Source of the DNA: Gammaproteobacteria bacterium
GTDB taxonomy: Bacteria; Pseudomonadota; Gammaproteobacteria; Eutrophobiales; Eutrophobiaceae
Reading direction: 5' to 3'
Assembly: GCA_016193395.1 (NCBI GenBank)
Contig: JACPSH010000010.1
Location: forward strand, 1-43,891
DNA: 43,891 nucleotides
Positions within the stretch are counted from its first letter, which is position 1; each line of letters opens with the position of its first letter. Below the pieces are notes generated by a model. The model was not told where the DNA came from. It did not search any database and worked only from the letters and a program-made list of their open reading frames with translations. This document shows, piece after piece, positions 10,399 to 39,993 of this stretch. Both the position numbers and the translations under genes were made by a program.

Positions 10399-10836
10399 TT
10401 ACTGATGGATGATTTCTTCCCGCATCGGCGCGAGCAGGCTCAATAGCCTGTTGCGGGCCGAGTGGGGGATGCCGGTCCCCACCATCGCGTCGGTTAAGCG
10501 TTCGACAAAGGCGTCGAATTCCGCCTCGTTGATGTCCATGCCGGAGTGCGCTTCGGACATCGAGCGTCCCTTGTATTCGCACGGTCCGCCGCTCAGATAA
10601 CAGATCTGATCCTGGAGCTGCCGGATCAGTTCCGCATCGTTCATTTTCTCGAACAGGAAGCTGATGCGCTTATCCGAATGCGCGAGCCGCACCGTGGCGG
10701 TGACCAGTCTCTCCACGCCCGGCTGGCCGCCGAGATCTTCGTACAGGCTGCGGCCGCCGGGTCCCGGCGTCGCGGCGCAGGCAACGACGAGCAGCAGCAC
10801 GGGTAACGGCGTGCAAGGAAGCATCGATGAGCGCAT
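10399..10836 (-). CDS. Group 1 truncated hemoglobin, predicted lipoprotein
   Basis: A 145-residue truncated (2-on-2) globin that would bind heme and a diatomic gas such as O2 or NO. The globin core starts at SLYEDLGGQPGVERLV (about 30-45) and carries QICYLSGGPCEYKGRSM. The proximal heme His is in EAHSGMDI (H97). The N-terminus has a signal and lipobox (LLLVVAC, Cys20), which predicts a lipid-anchored protein outside the cytoplasm; most characterised truncated globins are cytoplasmic. The helix-B position usually aromatic in this family appears to be Thr here, which may alter ligand handling. The ATG directly abuts the stop of the DUF3034 gene (TGAATG), so the two are translated together. Confidence 0.87.
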   Translation of the reverse strand: MRSSMLPCTPLPVLLLVVACAATPGPGGRSLYEDLGGQPGVERLVTATVRLAHSDKRISFLFEKMNDAELIRQLQDQICYLSGGPCEYKGRSMSEAHSGMDINEAEFDAFVERLTDAMVGTGIPHSARNRLLSLLAPMREEIIHQ

Positions 10837-11766
10837 TCAATACGTCCCTTCGACGCTGAAATAGAATCCGTCCTGGCCGGACTTGCCCGCCACCGAGCCC
10901 AGGTCAATCCATGCGCCGGTCAGGCTGAGATACTTGTTCGGGAACCAGGCGAGAAAGGCGTCCTGCCAGTCGTCTTCCGCCGCGAAGCTGAGGTTGTCCG
11001 GCTTCTGCCTGTATTCGTAGCCGAGCAGGAGATCGCGCCGCAGGAGGATGCCGGCGCTCGCCTCAAAAAGCGTGTCTCGGCTGCCGTCCTTGTCGCCGCC
11101 GAATCCGAGCAACCCCAGCTGGTTCGCCCGCGAGAAACGCAGCCCGACATTGACCAGCACCGGATAGCCGTAGATCCCGGAAAGCCACAAGCGGCTCGCG
11201 TTCAGATAAAAATCGATATCATCGTCGTCGCGCGCGCCGGTGAGCGCGGGAACGTCGAAGTCGGCGTTATGCTTGTACTGCAGGCCGGCGCTGAACTGCG
11301 GCACGACGCCATAGATCAGATCGCCAAGCAACCGCGCCTTCACGCCGACGATCTCCTGCCGCAGCGTGTCGTCGGGCAGACCGAGATCGTCGGCGAGATC
11401 GTCAATGTCGAGAAGCTGCGTCGAGAGCGAGAATTCCACCCGGTTGCCGAACGCGACGGAGACCCCGGCCGCGCCCAGCGCATAGTCATCGGTCCGGGCA
11501 TAGGTGACGAACAAATCGCCGCCCCATTCGTCCTTCTGCCCGTAGCCCGAAAGGACCGCCCAGGGCACCAGTCCGCCCCCCGCGGCGCCTTCGATCTGGG
11601 TGATGCCGCCGGTGGCGAGCAGGCGACTGCCGGTGTCGAAGCCTTGGACGGGAGGCAGCGCTATGCCGAACAGGACTACGCCCATCACCCGTTGCAGGAT
11701 TCCGCGCCACGGTCCGGATCTGTGCCGGGGGCGTCGCTGATGGATCGGGTTTCCTGCGGTTCGCAT
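10837..11766 (-). CDS. DUF3034 family outer-membrane beta-barrel protein
   Basis: A 309-residue protein with alternating polar/hydrophobic strands. Recognisable DUF3034 features are RLLATGGITQIEGAAGGGLVP at the start of the mature part, WAVLSGYG, DLFVTYARTDDYALGAAGVS and FPNKYLSLTGAWIDLG. The end, FYFSVEGTY, is an aromatic barrel-type C-terminus. A hydrophobic signal (VMGVVLFGIALPPVQG) follows a long basic N-region, so the true start may be the Met at residue 28. DUF3034 has no known function; an outer-membrane porin-like role is inferred. It is the first gene of a two-gene unit with the lipoprotein globin and is divergent from the cupredoxin-kinase operon. Confidence 0.8.
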   Translation of the reverse strand: MRTAGNPIHQRRPRHRSGPWRGILQRVMGVVLFGIALPPVQGFDTGSRLLATGGITQIEGAAGGGLVPWAVLSGYGQKDEWGGDLFVTYARTDDYALGAAGVSVAFGNRVEFSLSTQLLDIDDLADDLGLPDDTLRQEIVGVKARLLGDLIYGVVPQFSAGLQYKHNADFDVPALTGARDDDDIDFYLNASRLWLSGIYGYPVLVNVGLRFSRANQLGLLGFGGDKDGSRDTLFEASAGILLRRDLLLGYEYRQKPDNLSFAAEDDWQDAFLAWFPNKYLSLTGAWIDLGSVAGKSGQDGFYFSVEGTY

Positions 11767-12031
11767 TCGGCCGGGTTTCAGCTAAATAACCTTAATAGGA
11801 TAATATAATTGCATGATATTTCAAGGATTCAGTTTATGCTCTCCTGACTTGGCCGAAGCGGCAGACCGCCCCGCATTACCGGATGCGGGTACCGGCACGC
11901 GGACGGGCGCGAATGTGAAAGACCCCACAGGCGGCAGACGTTCCGGGTGGAATCCACGCTCCGCGGCGGGTTCTAATACTCAAACCGCCGTCGTGGACGA
12001 GCCGGACCTTTCATCGATTCGGAGGTATTGG
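11767..12031. promoter_or_regulatory. Divergent regulatory region between DUF3034-globin and cupredoxin-kinase operons
   Basis: This 265-base region contains no convincing gene. Its left part is strikingly AT-rich for this window (11780-11840) and contains a perfect TATAAT at 11804-11809 on the plus strand, although no good -35 lies 16-18 bases before it. A plus-strand transcript from there would have a leader of about 215 bases before the cupredoxin ATG. The leader is GC-rich, and I could not match it to a riboswitch class I know. Confidence 0.4.
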
Positions 12032-12718
12032 ATGCGAACGACCCTGCTGACCCGTGTCTTGTGTTTGCCAGCCCTGCTCGGCGCCGTGAATGTCGCCGCC
12101 GCGGATTTCAACGGCCGGGTGTCGCTTGCGGAACAGGGCAAGTCCGCGGCCGCCGAGGAATACGCGGACGTGGTCGTGTACTTCGTGCCGGACAAGCCGG
12201 CGGCCGCACCTGCGCCGCTGACGGGCCCGGCGCAGATGCGCATGGAGAATAAGGAATTCGCTCCGAGGGTTCTGCCGGTGACGGTGGGCACGGAGGTCAG
12301 CTTTCAAAACTTCGATCCCATCCTTCACAACGCCTTTTCCACCTCCACGAACAACGCCTTCGACCTCGGCTTCTACGCCGGCGGCGAGGCGCATTCGCAC
12401 CAATTCGCCGACACCGGACTGGTCCGCGTGTACTGCAACGTGCATCATTCGATGGTGGCCTACGTCCTGGTCATGAACACGCCGCATTTCTCGGGTGTTT
12501 CCGGCGGCGGGGAATTCACGCTGAGCAATCTCCCGGCGGAGACCGGCACGCTCTACATCTGGCATCCGCGCGCCGACGTGGTGAAAAACTCCATGGATTT
12601 CAGCCAGGCCGGAGTGCCGAAGGGCGAATACAAGCTGGACCTGACGCAGCGGCGCATCCCGACGCACATGAACAAGGAAGGCAAGTCCTATCGCAGGAGC
12701 CGCGAGCGGGAATACTGA
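12032..12718 (+). CDS. Periplasmic cupredoxin-fold protein (methylamine-utilization-protein-like)
   Basis: A 228-residue secreted protein with signal peptide (TRVLCLPALLGAVNVAAA). The first half starts FNGRVSLAEQG, a strand-rich carboxypeptidase-regulatory-like region. The centre carries a type 1 copper site: His99 in PILHNAFS, Cys135 and His138 in VYCNVHH, Met141 in HSM. So it probably binds copper and transfers electrons, or senses redox state, in the periplasm. Proteins of this type are often annotated as methylamine utilization proteins, but no mau genes are seen. A GGAGG site seven bases before the ATG supports the start. It is followed after one base by the kinase gene, so both are in one operon. 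Confidence 0.85.
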   Translation: MRTTLLTRVLCLPALLGAVNVAAADFNGRVSLAEQGKSAAAEEYADVVVYFVPDKPAAAPAPLTGPAQMRMENKEFAPRVLPVTVGTEVSFQNFDPILHNAFSTSTNNAFDLGFYAGGEAHSHQFADTGLVRVYCNVHHSMVAYVLVMNTPHFSGVSGGGEFTLSNLPAETGTLYIWHPRADVVKNSMDFSQAGVPKGEYKLDLTQRRIPTHMNKEGKSYRRSREREY

Positions 12719-12719
12719 C

Positions 12720-15350
12720 GTGAAGCTCGGCCTCGGACAACGGATCTTTCTCGCCTTCGGCGGGTTGCTGGTGCTGGTGCTCGGACTTGCCGCGGGGGTC
12801 ACCTACTATCGCGGCAACAGGATCGCGGGCCAGGCCGTGGTCGAGGCGCTGGAAAACATCCGCGCGGTCCAGTCCGGATATGAATCCCAGCGTTTCCGGC
12901 AACTGCGCCTGATCTCCGAAATCTTCGCCTCGGATCCCTATTTTTCCAGTTACGTGGCGGAGGCGACCGGCGGCGACCTGGGCCTGGGCGGCGGGGTGGA
13001 CAAGACGTCGATTGCGGATCTGCTCTCGGAACGCCAGGAAGACCTCGGCTTCGATTTCGCGATGGTGCTGGACAACGCGGGCAAGGTCATCGCACGCACG
13101 GATTTCCCGGGATTGTCCATGGATGATCTCGCCGGCGACGCCGTCGTCGGCCCGGTCGTCCAGTCGCTTGAATCCGCCGCCGGTTACTGGTTCCGCGATG
13201 ATGGCGCCTACCAGATCGCCGTCGTCCCGCTGGCCGATGAGGAAAACCTCGTCGGTTTCCTGCTGACCGGCCTCGTGGTCGGCGATCGCTTCGCCGAGGA
13301 GATCAAGGACATCAGCGGCTCCGAGCTGGTGTTCCTCCTGAACGGAAAGGATGGCCTGCAGCCCGTCGCCGGCACGCTGGATGACAGGGAACTGGATGCG
13401 CTCGCGCAGCAGCGGTCATCCCTGATGGCCGCGCAGCAGGGCGCGCCGGTCGAGATCGAGATCGCCGGCCGCCACTGGCTCGCTTCGGTCAGTCCGGCGG
13501 GCAGTCCCGATTCGGGAGGGCTCGCGGTGGCGCTCACTTCGCTGGATGAGGCGCTCGGCGACTTTCGGGACATCACGAACGGCCTCCTGATCGCCACCGG
13601 GATCAGCATTCTTCTGGCCCTGCCTTTGTCGCTGCTCGTATCGCGGGGCGTGCTCGCGCCGGTCAGACGGCTCGCCACGGCGGCGCAGGCGGCGGCGCGC
13701 GGGAACTATCAGCAGCGCTTTGAAGCGGGCGGCAAGGACGAGGTCGCGCAGCTCACGGCTTCCTTTGACTCGCTGCTCAGCGACTTGCGGGAAAAGAGCG
13801 ACATGCAGGGCTACATGGCGGCACTCGCCAAGTTCCTGCCCGACATGCTGGATACCAAGGGTTCCGGCTCGGCCCGCAGGAGCATCGGCCACCAGCCCTC
13901 GGCTTACGGCCCGTTCGCCTTGCTCGGCATCGACATGCGCCGGTTCGCCAGACAGGTGGACAAGACCGCGCCGGAGGAAGTTTTCAATCTGGTCAACGCC
14001 AACCTGGAAACCATCGAGGCCCTGGTCAAGGCGCACGCCGGCAGGATGGTCGGCATGTCCGGACATCGCGTGCTGGTCGTCTTCGACGGGCAGGACGGCT
14101 ACAAGCGCGCGCTGACCGTGGCCGGCAGCGTGATGTCGAACCTCGTGAGCCAGGGGGAAGGGATCGCGGCGGCCGTCGTGCAAGGCCATGCCGCGTCCGG
14201 ACGGATCTACGTCGGCGAAGAGAGCGCGGAGAACCTGCTCGGGCTGGCGGTGTATCAGCTCGATCGCCTGCTGCAGGAGGCCGTTTCCGGCCAGTTGTTT
14301 TTCACCAAGGAGATTCACGAGGCGATCCGCAAGGAGGTGCCCGATTTCAAGCCGTTGATCTCCCAGGGCGTGGTCAGCAAGAACAAGTTTTATGCGCTCA
14401 ATGCCGCCGACACCAACGTGTTCCAGGTGGAAGGCGAGGAGGCGACGATCCCGGGCGGCGGCGTCACGCTGGCGAGCGTCGCCACGCAGATGGGGGATGG
14501 ACGACCAGGCCGCAGAAAGGTGAAGGTCATGCCGGGCATCACGCTCGGCGATCGTTACGAGATCATCTCCGAACTCGGCGCGGGAGGGATGGGCGTGGTC
14601 TACAAGGCGCACGACCACGAACTGAATGACCTGGTGGCCCTGAAGATGCTGAAGATCTCGGGCGCCGAAGGCGAGAAGGAATACCTGGAGGCGATGAAGA
14701 GCGAGATCCGGCTGGCGCGGAAGATCACCCACCCCGCGGTGCTGCGCACCTTCGATTACGGCGAACTGGAGGGCGTGCCCTACATCTCCATGGAATACGT
14801 GCGCGGCCTGACGCTGAAATACCTGCTGGCGCAGCGCGGCCGGATCCCGTATTCGGCGGGACTGCATATCGCCAAGCAGGTCGCCGCCGGACTGCAGGCC
14901 GCCCACGCGCAGGGCGTGCTGCACCGGGACATCAAGGCGGAGAACGTCATTCTTGAACATAACGGCAATGCCAAGCTGATGGATTTCGGCATCGCGCGCC
15001 AGGTGTCCGGTCCGGGGCTGGGCGACCTCGAAGGGGCGGTCGTCGGCACGCCGCGCTATGCCGCTCCGGAGCAGTTGATGGGCAAGCCGGTGGACGCGCG
15101 CGCCGACATCTACGCGGCGGGCGTGTTGATCTACCAGATGTACACGGGCGAGTTCCCGTTCAAGGTCAAGCGCATCAGCGAACTGGCGAAGGCGAAGAAC
15201 GAAGAGGATCCCATCAAGCCCTCGACGTACTGGAAGGAGATCCCGCCGGCGCTGGAGGACCTCATCATGCGCTGCATCGCGCGCAATCCGGACGACCGGC
15301 TGCCGAGCGCGGAAAAGCTGCTCGAAGGGCTGGAACAGCTCCGCGCATGA
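12720..15350 (+). CDS. Membrane sensor: Cache-HAMP-cyclase-like-Ser/Thr kinase fusion
   Basis: This 876-residue protein starts at GTG. A first membrane helix (about 8-28) is followed by an extracytoplasmic double-Cache-like region (about 35-285), a second helix (about 288-310), HAMP (about 311-362), a class III adenylate/guanylate cyclase-like domain (about 395-560) and a C-terminal Hanks kinase (about 604-876). The kinase is complete: GAGGMGVVYKA, the ATP Lys in ALKML, HRDIKAEN (H735, D737), DFGIA and TPRYAAPE. The cyclase part looks degenerate. The first metal Asp is kept (GIDMRRF), but the second falls at GHR instead of GD, and the Asn of VNxAAR is replaced (AVYQLDR). It probably serves as a regulatory coupler rather than an enzyme. 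It should phosphorylate cytoplasmic targets in response to a periplasmic signal. Confidence 0.88.
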   Translation: MKLGLGQRIFLAFGGLLVLVLGLAAGVTYYRGNRIAGQAVVEALENIRAVQSGYESQRFRQLRLISEIFASDPYFSSYVAEATGGDLGLGGGVDKTSIADLLSERQEDLGFDFAMVLDNAGKVIARTDFPGLSMDDLAGDAVVGPVVQSLESAAGYWFRDDGAYQIAVVPLADEENLVGFLLTGLVVGDRFAEEIKDISGSELVFLLNGKDGLQPVAGTLDDRELDALAQQRSSLMAAQQGAPVEIEIAGRHWLASVSPAGSPDSGGLAVALTSLDEALGDFRDITNGLLIATGISILLALPLSLLVSRGVLAPVRRLATAAQAAARGNYQQRFEAGGKDEVAQLTASFDSLLSDLREKSDMQGYMAALAKFLPDMLDTKGSGSARRSIGHQPSAYGPFALLGIDMRRFARQVDKTAPEEVFNLVNANLETIEALVKAHAGRMVGMSGHRVLVVFDGQDGYKRALTVAGSVMSNLVSQGEGIAAAVVQGHAASGRIYVGEESAENLLGLAVYQLDRLLQEAVSGQLFFTKEIHEAIRKEVPDFKPLISQGVVSKNKFYALNAADTNVFQVEGEEATIPGGGVTLASVATQMGDGRPGRRKVKVMPGITLGDRYEIISELGAGGMGVVYKAHDHELNDLVALKMLKISGAEGEKEYLEAMKSEIRLARKITHPAVLRTFDYGELEGVPYISMEYVRGLTLKYLLAQRGRIPYSAGLHIAKQVAAGLQAAHAQGVLHRDIKAENVILEHNGNAKLMDFGIARQVSGPGLGDLEGAVVGTPRYAAPEQLMGKPVDARADIYAAGVLIYQMYTGEFPFKVKRISELAKAKNEEDPIKPSTYWKEIPPALEDLIMRCIARNPDDRLPSAEKLLEGLEQLRA

Positions 15351-16495
15351 CGAGCGCCGCGGCGGGAGGCCAGGACGGTTCCGATTTGCGCATCGAGGGC
15401 GATGCCTCTTTCCTGTCCGGACTGCTTTTCCTGCTGCTGTTCCCGTTGACCCAGCCCTGTGTCGCGGCAGATCCGCCGGTGGCGGAGGACCTGGCGGCAA
15501 TGGAGCGCAGCTTCGAGTACTTTGCCGACGCGCGGTTGCGGGGCGATTTCGTGCGCGACCTGCCGCGGCCGATCGAGAAGGACTTCGAGCGGGGAACGAT
15601 CCGCGTCCGGCCGGGCATATCGTGGTTTCCGAATGAAGTCCTGGAATTCGGGGTCGCGGCCAGAATCAACCTGAGCACGCAGGGCAACAGCAAGACGCGC
15701 TTTAACCTGGACAACGAGAAGGCCGATGATGTCCTGCTCGACGAATTGTTCATGACGGCGCACCTGTCCGAAGAGACCGAACTGCTTGTCGGACAGAGCC
15801 AGTTCCCGTTGCGGTTGAGCCCGATGCTCTGGGACCAGGACCTGCGCCCCCAGGGTGTGTCGCTGCGCCACCGTGTCGGGATCGGAAATTTCAATTCCTT
15901 CGAGGCGCTGGGCGGCGCGTTCCTGGGCAACCACCTGTATGGCGATGATTCGAAAATCCAGGCCGCGCAGGCGGCCCTGCGGATCGGCGAAGGCAAGTCG
16001 ATCCAATACCTGCTTCTGCTCTCCTGGGTGGACTTCGACGATCTCGACGAACTGGCGCGCAAGGGCCTGGGCCGGACGAACCTTTTGAATCCTGACGGCA
16101 CGTTCGCGGACGATTTCAACATCGCCGATCTGCAACTGGGCGTCGAATTCACGGCGCGGAACTGGCCCGTCCGGGCGCGGATCGATCTGGCCCGCAACAC
16201 GGCGGCGGGTGAGGACGGCTTCGGCGGCCGCGCCGATCTCGTGATCGGCAACAGCATCCGGCGACAGGGGTTCGAATTCGGCGTCGCGCACCAGCGCGTT
16301 CAGAGACAGGCGGTGCAGGCCGCCTTCAACGACGATGACTGGTGGTTCCGATCCAGGATGCGCGGCACGATGGTCTGGCTGGGTTATGGATTCAGCGAAT
16401 CGCTGCGCATCCGCCTTGCCGGATTCAGCGAGCGGCTGGATGTTGCGCAGAACCGGAACGAGCGCGGCCTGGTCGACCTGGAGTGGTTCTACTGA
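15347..16495 (+). CDS. Outer-membrane beta-barrel protein (putative porin)
   Basis: A 382-residue protein whose ATG overlaps the kinase stop (ATGA). A hydrophobic signal (FLSGLLFLLLFPLTQPCVAA) follows an unusually long N-region of about 20 residues. The mature protein shows repeated amphipathic strands (FGVAARINLSTQG, DELFMTAHLSEETELLVGQS, SIQYLLLLSWVDF) and ends in LVDLEWFY, an aromatic C-terminus that fits barrel insertion. I cannot name the family more closely. Coupling to the sensor kinase suggests it supplies or shares the signal at the outer membrane. Its stop overlaps the stop of the convergent MFS gene. Confidence 0.7.
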   Translation: MTSAAAGGQDGSDLRIEGDASFLSGLLFLLLFPLTQPCVAADPPVAEDLAAMERSFEYFADARLRGDFVRDLPRPIEKDFERGTIRVRPGISWFPNEVLEFGVAARINLSTQGNSKTRFNLDNEKADDVLLDELFMTAHLSEETELLVGQSQFPLRLSPMLWDQDLRPQGVSLRHRVGIGNFNSFEALGGAFLGNHLYGDDSKIQAAQAALRIGEGKSIQYLLLLSWVDFDDLDELARKGLGRTNLLNPDGTFADDFNIADLQLGVEFTARNWPVRARIDLARNTAAGEDGFGGRADLVIGNSIRRQGFEFGVAHQRVQRQAVQAAFNDDDWWFRSRMRGTMVWLGYGFSESLRIRLAGFSERLDVAQNRNERGLVDLEWFY

Positions 16496-34416: not shown

Positions 34417-35658
34417 ATGTCTACACAGCACGTCATGCTCTCCAGACGAAGAAGCATCGGTGTCAGGGTTGGCCCCGTTCTGATCGGCGGCGGCGCGCCG
34501 ATTGTCATCCAGTCCATGACCAATACCGACACCGTGGACGCCGAGGCCACGGCGCGGCAGGCGCAGGAGCTGGCCGCGGCCGGCTCCGAGCTCGTGCGCA
34601 TCACCGTGAACACCGAAAAGGCGGCGGCGCAGGTCGCGCGTATCCGCGAAAAGCTGGATGCGATGGGCTGTGGCGTGCCGCTCATCGGCGATTTCCACTA
34701 CAACGGCCATAAGCTGCTGACCAAATTCCCGGACTGCGCGCGGGCGCTGGCCAAGTACCGGATTAATCCCGGCAATGTCGGCATGGGGGAGAAGCGGGAC
34801 ACCCAGTTCGCCATCATGATCGAGAAGGCCATCGAGCACGACCGTCCGGTGCGCATCGGCGTCAACTGGGGCAGCCTGGATCAGGATCTGCTCACACGCA
34901 TGATGGATGAAAACGCCAGGCTGTCCGAGCCTAGGGACGCCGAGGAGGTCATGCGCGAAGCGCTGATCGTCTCGGCGTTGTCCAGCGCCACGCGTGCCGA
35001 GGCACTGGGGCTGTCGCGCGACCACATTGTCCTGTCCTGCAAGGTCAGCGGCGTGCAGAAACTGATCTCGGTTTACCGCGATCTCGCGGCGCGCTGCGAT
35101 TATGCGCTGCACCTCGGACTGACCGAGGCCGGCATGGGGTCGAAAGGCATTGTGGCGTCCACTGCCGCGCTCGGCGTCCTCCTCCAGGAAGGGATCGGAG
35201 ACACGATCCGCATCTCGCTGACGCCGGAGCCGGGCGGCGATCGGACGCGGGAAGTGATCGTGGCGCAGGAGATCCTGCAAACCATGGGGCTGCGCTCGTT
35301 CACGCCGCTGGTGACCGCGTGTCCCGGCTGCGGCCGCACGACCAGCACCGTGTTCCAGGAGCTGGCGAACAGCATCCAGGCCTACGTGCGCAGCCAGATG
35401 CCGATCTGGCGCGGCAAATACAACGGCGTGGAGGACCTCAACCTGGCCGTGATGGGGTGCGTCGTCAACGGCCCCGGCGAAAGCAAACATGCGGATATCG
35501 GCATCAGCCTGCCCGGTTCGGGCGAGGCGCCCGCCGCGCCGGTATTCATCGACGGCAAAAAGGTCACGACGCTGCACGGCAGGAACATTGCCCAGGATTT
35601 CCAGCGCATCGTCGACGAGTACGTGGAGCGGCGTTACGGCAAGGCCGGTTCCGATTGA
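34417..35658 (+). CDS. ispG: 4-hydroxy-3-methylbut-2-en-1-yl diphosphate synthase (IspG/GcpE)
   Basis: A 413-residue iron-sulfur enzyme that reductively opens methylerythritol cyclodiphosphate to HMBPP in the MEP pathway. The TIM-barrel part has [29 protein letters not shown] and INPGNVG; the [4Fe-4S] ligands are in [11 protein letters not shown] and [10 protein letters not shown]. Length is typical of the bacterial enzyme. The upstream 133 bases include an AT-rich stretch (34384-34404) with repeated GAATATAG, a likely promoter area shared with fabA. The downstream acs start is 46 bases away on the same strand. Confidence 0.95.
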
Positions 35659-35704
35659 TTGCCTATGCGCAATCCGGGACAAATCGTCGAACGGGGAGAA
35701 GCGC

Positions 35705-37639
35705 ATGCCTGAAGTCGTTTATCCGGTCCCGGAATCGCTGGCCACTAAGGCCCATCTCAGGACGCCGGAATACCTGGAGATGTACCGGCGATCGCTCGCC
35801 GAGCCGGAGGCGTTCTGGGCCGAACAGGCGCGCCGGTTTATCGGCTGGACCCGGTCCTGGGACCGGGTACTGGACTGGGACTTCACGGCCGGCCGCATCC
35901 GCTGGTTCGAGGGCGCGCAGCTTAATGTGTCCTGGAACTGTCTGGATCGACACCTAGCTGAACGCGGGGACCAGACCGCGATTATCTGGGAGGCCGACCA
36001 GCCGGGGCAGGGACGCCGCATCACGTACCGTGAACTGCACAGCGACGTCTGCCGGTTCGCGAACGTCCTGAAAGCGCACGGAGTCCGCAAGGGCGACCGC
36101 GTATCGATTTACCTGCCGATGATCCCCGAGGCTGTCGTCGCCATGCTCGCCTGCGCGCGCATAGGCGCCATCCATTCGGTGGTATTCGGCGGCTTTTCCG
36201 CGGAGGCACTCAAGGATCGCATCCTCGATTCGGATTGCCGCATCGTCATCACGTCCGACGAAAGCATCCGCGGCGGACGTCGGACGCCGCTGAAGGCGAA
36301 TGTCGAACAGGCACTCACGCACTGCCCGATGGTGCACACGGTCCTGGTCGTGCGCCGATCGGGGGGAGACGTTCCCTGGAAAGCAGGGCGCGATCACTGG
36401 TATCACGACGAAATGGAACGCGCCGCGCCGGAATGTCCGGCCGATGCGATGGACGCCGAGGATCCCTTGTTCATCCTTTATACCTCCGGTTCCACCGGCA
36501 AGCCGAAGGGCGTCCTGCACACGAGCGGCGGCTATCTCCTGTTCGCGGCCATCACGCATAAATACATCTTCGATTATCAGGACGGCGAGGTTTTCTGGAG
36601 CACGGCGGACATCGGCTGGGTCACCGGCCACACCTATATCGTCTACGGCCCGCTATGCAACGGTGCGACCACGTTGCTGTTCGAGGGCGTTCCCACCTGG
36701 CCCGATGCCGGACGCTTCTGGGAAGTCATCGATCGCCACAGGGTGAATATCTTCTATACCGCGCCGACAGCCTTACGCGCGCTGATGGCGCTCGGCGATT
36801 CGCACGTGACGAAATACTCACGCCGCAGCCTGCGCATCCTTGGTACGGTGGGCGAGCCGATCAATCCGGAGGCCTGGGAGTGGTACCACCGCGTGGTCGG
36901 CGATCGCCGCTGCCCGGTGGTCGACACCTGGTGGCAGACGGAGACGGGTGGCATCCTGATCACGCCGCTGCCGGGCGCCACCGATCTGAAGCCCGGTTCG
37001 GCGGCGCTGCCGTTTTTCGGCGTCGAGCCCTGCCTGGTCGATGACCAGGGCCGCGAACTGGAAGGCGCGGCGGCCGGCGCGTTGTGCATCAAGCGCCCCT
37101 GGCCCGGGCAGATGCGCACGGTGTACGGCGACCACCCGCGTTTCGTGGACACGTATTTCCGGACCTTCCCGGGAAAATACTTCACGGGCGACGGCGCCCG
37201 GCGCGACGCGGACGGTTACTATTGGATCACGGGCCGCATCGACGACGTGCTGAACGTGTCGGGGCACCGGATCGGCACCGCGGAAGTGGAGAGCGCGCTG
37301 GTGCTGCACCCGGCGGTCGCCGAGGCGGCCGTGGTCGGCTATCCCCATGACATCAAGGGACAGGCGATCTACGCCTACGTGACGCTGATGTCCGGGCTTG
37401 AGCCGAGCGAGGCGCTGCGCACGGAACTGGTGCGCCACGTGCGCAAGGAAATCGGTCCCATCGCGACGCCGGACATCATCCAATGGGCGCCGGGACTGCC
37501 CAAGACCCGCTCCGGGAAGATCATGCGCCGCATCCTGCGCAAGGTCGCGGCCAACGAACTGGAGAACCTCGGCGATACCAGTACGCTTGCAGACCCCTCA
37601 GTTGTGGACGAACTTATCATCAACCGCGCCAATCGTTGA
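35705..37639 (+). CDS. acs: Acetyl-CoA synthetase (Acs)
   Basis: A 644-residue AMP-forming ligase making acetyl-CoA from acetate, CoA and ATP. It has [12 protein letters not shown], the P-loop-like [45 protein letters not shown], the hinge [17 protein letters not shown] and the C-terminal regulatory Lys in [12 protein letters not shown], which is acetylated in studied homologues. Size matches Acs, and the acetate-specific Trp in DTWWQTETG favours acetate over longer acids. The ATG is preceded by GGGGAGAAGC. It feeds acetyl-CoA to the nearby malate synthase and PHA genes. Confidence 0.95.
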
Positions 37640-37722
37640 TCGCGCTTTAAATCAGTATCTTATTGTTTTAAATATGTTTTATTCACTATCTCCGCTCCGG
37701 GGACCGAGCTCCTAAACAGCGG

Positions 37723-37751
37723 TTGACACCCCGGGTCAATTCTCTTATTGT
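37723..37751 (+). promoter_or_regulatory. sigma70 promoter of the phasin gene
   Basis: A perfect -35 TTGACA (37723-37728) and TATTGT (37746-37751) as -10 are separated by 17 bases. The likely start is about 37758, giving a leader of some 50 bases with GGAGGG before the ATG. Confidence 0.7.
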
Positions 37752-37755
37752 GCAC

Positions 37756-37781
37756 TGCATCATAATTGATGCAATGCATCA
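37756..37781 (+). promoter_or_regulatory. TGCATCA repeats, possible PhaR-type operator
   Basis: TGCATCA (37756-37762), its inverse TGATGCA (37767-37773) and a second TGCATCA (37775-37781) sit right at the expected transcription start. PhaR repressors of phasin genes in other bacteria bind TGC-rich inverted sites at such positions and are released by PHA granules. No phaR gene is in the window, so the regulator is inferred. Confidence 0.45.
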
Positions 37782-37809
37782 AATGCCATATACGACGGAG
37801 GGTCAAGTC

Positions 37810-38214
37810 ATGCAAAACGCCTTTATCGACTCATTTCAGGACGCCAACGCCCCGGGTTACCGCACGCTGCAGGAACTGAACGAGATTGCATCACGAGCGG
37901 TGCGCAAGCTCGCTGAGATCCAGTACAAGATCGCCGCCATCGGCATCGACGGTACCGTCGGACAGGCCAAGCTTCTGACCAACGCGTCCGGCTATGCCGA
38001 GTGGGTACAGGCCCAGCAGAAACTGGCGAGCGAATGCGGCAGCCGTCTGGTCGCTGTGAGCCGCGAGGCCGCCGAGGTGCTGGCCGAATCCCGCGATGAA
38101 TGGGTGGCATGGATGGAGAAGGGCATGTCCGTGGCCACGCTGCCGGGAAAGGCAAAGACCCAGGTCAAGGCGAAGGGAACGGCTCGGCGCGCGGCAACCG
38201 GAAAGGCGGCCTGA
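37810..38214 (+). CDS. Phasin family protein
   Basis: A 134-residue amphipathic helical protein that would coat polyhydroxyalkanoate granules. The pattern YRTLQELNEIASRAVRKLAE, then QYKIAAIGIDGTVGQAKLL and SREAAEVLAESRDEWVAWME, matches proteobacterial phasins. The C-terminus (KAKTQVKAKGTARRAATGKA) is Lys/Ala-rich and probably disordered. Preceded by a good promoter and GGAGGG, and followed by a strong terminator, it is a separate transcript placed between acs and the aceB-phaEC operon. Confidence 0.83.
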   Translation: MQNAFIDSFQDANAPGYRTLQELNEIASRAVRKLAEIQYKIAAIGIDGTVGQAKLLTNASGYAEWVQAQQKLASECGSRLVAVSREAAEVLAESRDEWVAWMEKGMSVATLPGKAKTQVKAKGTARRAATGKAA

Positions 38215-38250
38215 CGGGCCTCGCAACAATTTCGATCTCCTCCTCAAATC

Positions 38251-38290
38251 GAGCCCGGATTGTCAGAAATCAATCCGGGCTCTTTTTTTT
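38251..38290 (+). terminator. Rho-independent terminator after the phasin gene
   Basis: A perfect 11-base stem (GAGCCCGGATT / AATCCGGGCTC, ten-base loop) is followed by eight T. It ends the phasin transcript and separates it from aceB. Confidence 0.92.
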
Positions 38291-38382
38291 CTTCCCGGGT
38301 TGCAGGGGTTTGATGCAGAATTTTTTTCCATGTGCATTACCTGTCCCGAAACCGGTGGCGGTACAGGCCGGGAGAATACGCA

Positions 38383-39993
38383 ATGACCCAAACCGAAACT
38401 CCACTTCGCGCGCGCGCCAGCGTCCAGATTCTCGGTCCCGTAACGCCAGCATATGAATCGTTGCTGACCGCCGGGGCGCTTTCCTTCATTGAGGATCTGA
38501 CCCGCCGCTTCGCGCCGCGCGTGCGGGAACTCCTGGCGCGGCGCGCGGAATTCCAGAAGCGGCTGGATTCCGGTGAGCGCCCGGACTTCCTCGCTGAAAC
38601 CGCACACATCCGTGCGGCTGACTGGAGCATCGCGCCGTTACCCGCCGATCTGCTTGACCGACGCGTCGAAATCACCGGTCCCGTCGATCGGAAGATGATC
38701 ATCAATGCCCTGAATTCGCGGGCGCGGGTATTCATGGCCGATTTCGAGGATGCGTCAACGCCCTCCTGGCAGGTCATGATGGACGGGCAGTTGAACTTGC
38801 GCGACGCGGTAGCGGGTACGATTGAATATTCCGCGCCGGGCGGCAGGAAATACACACTGGCCGGGCAAACCGCCGTGCTCAAGGTGCGGCCGCGCGGCTG
38901 GCATCTAATCGAGTCCCACGCTCTCGTAGACGGCAAACCCGTTCCCGCGGGGCTGTGGGACTTCGGGTTGTTTCTGTTCCATAACGCCGCCAACCTGGTC
39001 GCCCGTGGAACGGGGGCGTATTTCTATCTACCGAAGCTGCAGAGCCATCTCGAGGCGCGTCTCTGGAACGAGGTATTCAACCACGCCGAGGATACCCTCG
39101 GACTCAGGCGCGGAACGATCCGGGCGACCGTGCTTATTGAAACGATCCTGGCCGCTTTCGAGATAGATGAGATCCTCTACGAACTGCGCGATCATGCCGC
39201 GGGCCTGAACTGCGGGCGCTGGGATTACATTTTCAGCTTCATCAAATGCTTCAGAAACCACCCGGACTTTGTGCTTCCGGATCGTGCGCAGGTCACCATG
39301 GAATCGCACTTCATGCGATCCTACTCGCGACTGGTTATCAAGACCTGTCACCGGCGCGGTGCCCACGCCATCGGCGGCATGGCCGCGCAGATCCCGGTGA
39401 AGGACGATCCTTATGCCAATGACATGGCCATGCTCAAGGTACGCCGGGACAAGGAGCGGGAAGCTCGGGATGGGCATGATGGCTGCTGGGTCAGCCATCC
39501 GGCCCTCGTGCCGTTGTGCACGGAGATATTCGACCAGTACATGGCGGGCCCCAACCAGATCAGCAAGCGCCTGGCGGATTTCGACGCTTCGCGGGAGGAT
39601 TTGCTGCGGGTCCCCGAAGGCAGCATCACGTTGCATGGCCTGACGGGCAACGTCAGCGCCGCGCTGCGCTACACGGAGGCGTGGCTGGGAGGTCAGGGCG
39701 CCGTGCCGCTGTACAACCTTATGGAAGATGTGGCTACAGCCGAGATCGCCCGCGCTCAGGTCTGGCAGTGGATCCATTTCCCAGGCGGCATTCTCGATGA
39801 CGGGCGTAGAGTGACGGCACAACTGTTCCGCGAAGTGCTGGCCCATGAATTGGAGACAATCCGGCTGCAGTTCGGCGATGCGCATTTCCAGGCTCGGCGT
39901 TACCGGCTCGCCGCGGACCTGCTGGAACGGATGGTCACGGGCGACGTGCTGCCGGATTTCCTGACGCTTGAGGCATACCATTATCTCGAGTGA
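38383..39993 (+). CDS. aceB: Malate synthase A (AceB)
   Basis: A 536-residue malate synthase of the A type, condensing glyoxylate with acetyl-CoA to malate. Landmarks are SRARVFMADFEDASTPSWQV, FYLPKLQSHLEARLWNEVF, IRATVLIETILAAFEIDEIL (metal-binding Glu), GRWDYIFSFIKCF, MGGMAAQIPVKD-like GGMAAQIPVKDDP and a final LTLEAYHYLE. The ATG at 38383 has GGGAGAAT ahead; the upstream frame is not conserved. No isocitrate lyase is in the window. It overlaps phaE at GTGA, so the glyoxylate enzyme and PHA synthase subunits are translated from one message. Confidence 0.95.
   Translation: MTQTETPLRARASVQILGPVTPAYESLLTAGALSFIEDLTRRFAPRVRELLARRAEFQKRLDSGERPDFLAETAHIRAADWSIAPLPADLLDRRVEITGPVDRKMIINALNSRARVFMADFEDASTPSWQVMMDGQLNLRDAVAGTIEYSAPGGRKYTLAGQTAVLKVRPRGWHLIESHALVDGKPVPAGLWDFGLFLFHNAANLVARGTGAYFYLPKLQSHLEARLWNEVFNHAEDTLGLRRGTIRATVLIETILAAFEIDEILYELRDHAAGLNCGRWDYIFSFIKCFRNHPDFVLPDRAQVTMESHFMRSYSRLVIKTCHRRGAHAIGGMAAQIPVKDDPYANDMAMLKVRRDKEREARDGHDGCWVSHPALVPLCTEIFDQYMAGPNQISKRLADFDASREDLLRVPEGSITLHGLTGNVSAALRYTEAWLGGQGAVPLYNLMEDVATAEIARAQVWQWIHFPGGILDDGRRVTAQLFREVLAHELETIRLQFGDAHFQARRYRLAADLLERMVTGDVLPDFLTLEAYHYLE

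Follow-up and report, generated by a model that had tools for sequence, protein, structure and literature searches.

The locus studied here raised the question of whether five adjoining genes for envelope proteins belong to one undescribed system and, if so, what that system does. In the window, which is the whole 43,891-nucleotide stretch of DNA analysed, these genes form two divergent units either side of a 265-base gap (11767-12031). On the minus strand, a DUF3034 protein (10837-11766; PF11231, E 2e-103) is followed with zero gap by an exported group 1 truncated globin carrying a VVAC lipobox (10399-10836; PF01152, 1.8e-12; truncated haemoglobin matches in the PDB), and the stop and start codons of the two genes are fused as TGAATG. 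On the plus strand, a periplasmic cupredoxin (12032-12718) is followed after 1 bp by a membrane receptor kinase (12720-15350), which in turn overlaps by 4 bp (ATGA) the gene for an outer-membrane porin (15347-16495; weak Porin_5 match, PF16930, 2.2e-5). The sequence-only reading had placed the five genes at these positions, in two tightly coupled units around an AT-rich region; their identities were established by Pfam together with PDB and profile comparison, and the arrangement was borne out. The 66-base core of the gap (11780-11845) is 71% A+T against 35% for the whole window, and only 0.03% of the 66-mers of the window are equally A+T-rich. No FNR, NorR or CueR-like match was found in the divergent region, and a promoter scan performed no better than shuffles, its only sigma-70-like hit (minus strand) being no better than expected by chance; a conserved regulator site in this region was therefore rejected. 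Among the window proteins, the globin, DUF3034, HAMP and kinase matches were above the Pfam cut-offs; the cupredoxin and the Cache ectodomain themselves fell under the curated cut-offs and were secured via relatives. Elsewhere in the window, the translations revealed acetyl-CoA-synthetase-like and malate-synthase-like genes (35489-39993) and a phasin-like ORF (37723-38214) that follows a stretch of locally lower GC.

The sequence-only reading had proposed a coherent, undescribed envelope system, for which the check would be co-occurrence of its genes in other genomes. In the present study, 398 genomes drawn across the phylum were surveyed for DUF3034 and the flanks were taken, together with those of two named relatives; the neighbour tallies represent ORF-level homology rather than annotated gene models. 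DUF3034 was present in 39 of the 398 genomes. In each of the 41 intact loci the globin adjoined it and was encoded on its strand; a cupredoxin lay nearby in 34 and a dCache-HAMP receptor in 33-34 of these loci. The four genes lay on one strand throughout in 23 loci and divergently, as in the window, in 8, and no neighbour family outside the core exceeded 6 of 42 loci. Moreover, named plasmids of Caballeronia and Novosphingobium carry the same four genes under the names 'DUF3034 family protein', 'group 1 truncated hemoglobin', 'EAL domain-containing protein' (the receptor) and, for the cupredoxin, 'methylamine utilization protein' or 'carboxypeptidase regulatory-like'. These data confirmed that the gene set is real, widely conserved and beyond a chance neighbourhood, and that its constant core consists of the cupredoxin, the dCache-HAMP receptor, the DUF3034 barrel and the globin. 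No description of the set was found in the open PubMed Central literature on DUF3034, cupredoxin, truncated hemoglobin, c-di-GMP and the Cache domain. The proposal of an undescribed coherent system is therefore upheld by the co-occurrence across many families and by this search; of the five-gene set, the four-gene core recurs across many families, but the porin is confined to one operon type and the kinase is not constant. Six loci have DUF3034 and the globin without cupredoxin and receptor. In one genome (L071; G078:C3), a second DUF3034 copy and its adjoining globin are both broken and decaying together, and none of the other four genes is found near two distant DUF3034 relatives of about 100 bits in the family of the window (L085, L086).

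The DUF3034 protein is predicted to be a 12-stranded outer-membrane beta-barrel. Its AlphaFold model has 12 strands with a pLDDT of about 90 across the barrel and matched FapF, KdgM, OmpG and NanC in Foldseek, and this likeness of the model is best taken as a generic barrel match rather than an indication of function. The true start may be an internal Met at about 11685, just ahead of the signal peptide.

The window globin matched PF01152 with 47.9 bits (cut-off 21) and PDB entry 3aq5 at 2e-14, which places it among the group 1 truncated globins. The haem ligand is intact: the proximal His F8 is conserved in 52 of 52 homologues, as are two Cys residues. Position B10 is Leu, Val, Ile or Met in 51 of 52 and Asn in one, with no Tyr in any of them; all 52 have apolar residues at E7 and E11, the latter being L, F, I or V. 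The globin had been called a lipoprotein, which holds for the window copy and for export in general; lipidation, however, is not a defining feature, with a lipobox in about 26 of 44 homologues and the remainder appearing to be Sec-exported without one. The fold of the family and the proximal His are held in common with trHbN of Mycobacterium tuberculosis (PDB 1idr) and with 3aq5; unlike these, the present globin is exported and has a conserved Cys pair and an apolar distal pocket, and the Tyr B10/Gln E11 network of trHbN-type NO dioxygenases was absent from the 52 homologues. In H-NOX proteins, apolar pockets follow a known NO-selectivity rule. A distinctly unlikely alternative is accordingly an NO or CO sensor, analogous to H-NOX/HaCE but located outside the cytoplasm, in which the pocket of the globin would prefer NO by preventing O2 from binding stably, and the ligand-bound globin would signal by way of the receptor. 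The apolar residues at B10, E7 and E11 fit this proposal, as does the commonest receptor output, a c-di-GMP phosphodiesterase-type protein. Against it, the globin is often missing from cupredoxin-receptor pairs, and the NO-response marker NnrS is not enriched in DUF3034 genomes (20 of 39 versus 210 of 398; Fisher p 0.87), so that a link to NO through NnrS was rejected.

The cupredoxin of the window gave PDB matches to blue-copper proteins and a weak match to PF00127 (Copper-bind; 17.7 bits against a cut-off of 21.2). Its type 1 copper ligands, a His plus the motif C-x2-H-x2-M, are intact in 70 of 70 cupredoxins. The same copper loop is found in the amicyanin-type cupredoxins from which the label 'methylamine utilization protein' derives; in contrast to these, the present protein has an extra C-terminal domain and a receptor as partner, with no other recurrent neighbour family, and no methylamine utilization (mau) context was seen, as judged from the neighbour-family tally rather than from individual mau models. 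The pairing with the receptor was assessed with a cupredoxin-profile search of 274 genomes of the class. Of 23 full-length cupredoxins, four of them seeds of the profile, 21 had a homologous receptor gene on their own strand no more than 3.5 kb away; with the alignment seeds left aside the count was 17 of 19, and in all the loci gathered, a set biased by the choice of loci, it was 80 of 86. No cupredoxin-receptor fusion was seen. Many of the pairs lack DUF3034 and the globin. The genome of the window itself has a second cupredoxin, next to a dCache-HAMP-GGDEF-EAL receptor (L125; G000:C37, 4023-8029); the 14 kb retrieved for this locus contains neither DUF3034 nor a globin. One genome thus possesses both receptor types. 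The invariant copper ligands, and the presence of cupredoxin partners in both superclades of the receptor described below, could point to a system for handling or sensing copper, in which copper would be transported or buffered by the barrel together with the cupredoxin, and the copper load would be signalled by the receptor. This we regard as very unlikely: no copper exporter, oxidase or regulator is recurrent among the neighbours at DUF3034 loci, the globin would be left unexplained, and type 1 copper sites usually serve in electron transfer.

The identity of the receptor was drawn from Pfam, profile comparison, PDB matches, catalytic residues and a structure model. It comprises a dCache ectodomain, a transmembrane segment, a HAMP domain (about 13635-13793, plus strand), a degenerate class III cyclase-like domain (about 13899-14420) and a Ser/Thr kinase domain (about 14556-15320). 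Cache-type Pfam matches of the window protein were weak and below cut-off and the HAMP match was above it; the orthologue in L117 reached 26.6 for dCache_3 against a cut-off of 25.7. Moreover, profile comparison with GGDEF-EAL receptors aligned 433 columns at a probability of 99.6, spanning the full ectodomain, the membrane segments and HAMP and running into the next domain, and this whole-length match to dCache_3 receptors identifies a dCache-HAMP transmembrane receptor. The middle domain, an addition to the sequence-only reading, was recognised by class III cyclase matches in the PDB (best E 0.005); the second metal-binding Asp of such cyclases is present in 0 of 22 and the first in 5 of 22. 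In the kinase, the Hanks-type catalytic Lys, Glu, HRD, Asn and DFG are each present in 20 of 20. Judged from these residues, the cyclase domain is degenerate, with its metal site lost, and the kinase behind it is intact. A Foldseek search with the full receptor returned only kinases among its matches, and the structure model had low overall confidence (pTM 0.36).

The sequence-only reading had treated the kinase and the porin as general members of the system. Instead, the kinase is one of several exchangeable outputs on a conserved ectodomain, as most homologous receptors end in GGDEF-EAL and others in a class III cyclase (L118, L183, L185), a histidine kinase (L180), a bare Ser/Thr kinase (L190-L192) or no output at all. 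Among 29 aligned homologous loci, the GGDEF-EAL end was found in 29, dCache_3 in 28 and HAMP in 26. The EAL motifs of the GGDEF-EAL receptors are intact in nearly all, and the GGDEF motif is degenerate in many, including A1 receptors such as those of L033, L034 and L055, which suggests a putative phosphodiesterase output with a regulatory GGDEF domain in the A1 receptors. The full window-type receptor was seen in the family of the window (L081-L084) and in 19 loci of family f20. The porin lies after the kinase in all 21 cyclase-like/kinase loci that are not truncated at the edge of a contig, although in L153 it is in two pieces, and it is thus linked only to this operon type. The window-type operons of f20 lack DUF3034 and the globin, apart from the globin of L153. 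Some receptors next to a cupredoxin (L163-L170, L172, L173) stop directly after HAMP, and six f20 loci with such an output-less receptor and a cupredoxin also carry DUF3034 and the globin, as does L171 of f20, whose receptor has the ectodomain and kinase and is missing the cyclase-like domain.

The trees placed the cyclase-like/kinase type in one separate deep clade for both cupredoxin and receptor, with a stem of about 2.2, and a recent swap of output from GGDEF-EAL to kinase was ruled out on this basis. The DUF3034 proteins beside window-type receptors, in contrast, are nested at ordinary depth (stem 0.27) among those linked to GGDEF-EAL receptors, which indicates that the DUF3034-globin pair has joined more than one cupredoxin-receptor branch. 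In a wider receptor tree, two superclades were resolved, one of kinases and output-less receptors and the other of GGDEF-EAL receptors with nested cyclases and the histidine kinase; a quick method required six output changes on this tree versus 26 with shuffled labels. Cupredoxin partners, and members with DUF3034 and the globin, occur in both superclades, which places the constant part on the extracytoplasmic side. The common denominator is the cupredoxin with the dCache-HAMP receptor, often joined by the outer-membrane barrel and the exported globin, and the simplest reading of these sequences is that the cupredoxin may be the partner of the receptor and the output exchangeable.

With about an even chance of being right, we propose that the locus encodes an envelope sensor in which the periplasmic blue-copper cupredoxin and the inner-membrane dCache-HAMP receptor would form the sensing pair, and the DUF3034 barrel and the exported haem globin an accessory module for delivering, conditioning or sampling the stimulus. 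The cupredoxin would dock on the dCache domain, and the signal may be the state of its copper, its redox state or a ligand that the globin hands over; a gas bound by the globin and a ligand crossing the barrel are further candidates. The kinase would be switched on or off via HAMP; in the lineage of the window, the output would be an active Ser/Thr kinase behind the degenerate cyclase domain, with the porin next to it. The two halves also occur separately, however, as in the six DUF3034-globin loci and in most kinase-type operons of f20, which suggests that they can work apart, and some receptors end after HAMP without an output of their own. Gene linkage alone would fit a sensor and a receptor-regulated electron-transfer or metal-handling unit equally well. 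An envelope redox or respiratory pathway is an unlikely but serious rival; in such a pathway, electrons would pass between cupredoxin and globin, DUF3034 would admit the substrate and the receptor would only regulate, for example motility or biofilm via c-di-GMP. It could account for a redox cupredoxin lying next to a haem protein that is exported, for DUF3034-globin pairs without a receptor in several genomes and for the missing output domains, but it sits less well with the cupredoxin's closer association with the receptor than with the globin, and with the many cupredoxin-receptor pairs, L125 among them, that lack DUF3034 and the globin.

About one in ten of the sampled phylum genomes carries DUF3034, and the gene names around it are uninformative or misleading, 'methylamine utilization protein' being an example. 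The gene set offers a testable role for DUF3034 and for one clade of truncated globins that are exported. Should sensing prove to be the task of the cupredoxin, a copper protein would act as the receptor of signals passed on to almost all types of bacterial signal output. We tentatively suggest, while leaning slightly against it, that cupredoxin-coupled receptors may represent a general class of envelope sensor in bacteria that has gone unrecognised. In this class, a dedicated blue-copper protein would be the subunit that binds the signal in the periplasm for one dCache-HAMP family, the outputs of which include c-di-GMP enzymes, a nucleotide cyclase, a histidine kinase and a Ser/Thr kinase, and DUF3034 and the exported globin would form its outer-membrane-facing extension.

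Several known systems resemble parts of this arrangement. The kinase domain, with all its catalytic residues, is like that of the PknB-like Ser/Thr kinases; it is preceded here by the dCache-HAMP-degenerate cyclase front, whereas those kinases have PASTA repeats, and the PASTA kinase (PknB/Stk1) model covered the kinase domain only, with 279 bits against a cut-off of 450. In the H-NOX/HaCE and NosP c-di-GMP systems, a haem protein is likewise tied to GGDEF-EAL or kinase receptors. Here, in contrast, that role falls to an exported truncated globin rather than to a cytoplasmic H-NOX or NosP, with no H-NOX match among the five proteins of the window, and the cupredoxin and DUF3034 stand alongside it. 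LuxP-LuxQ, TorT-TorS and HbpS-SenS are receptors with periplasmic partners, and the likeness to them lies in a soluble or exported protein whose gene lies next to that of a membrane receptor with its sensor domain in the periplasm, an association known here from linkage. Unlike in those systems, a type 1 copper protein takes the place of the partner, the receptor family has five output classes as well as members with none, and an outer-membrane barrel and a globin are attached.
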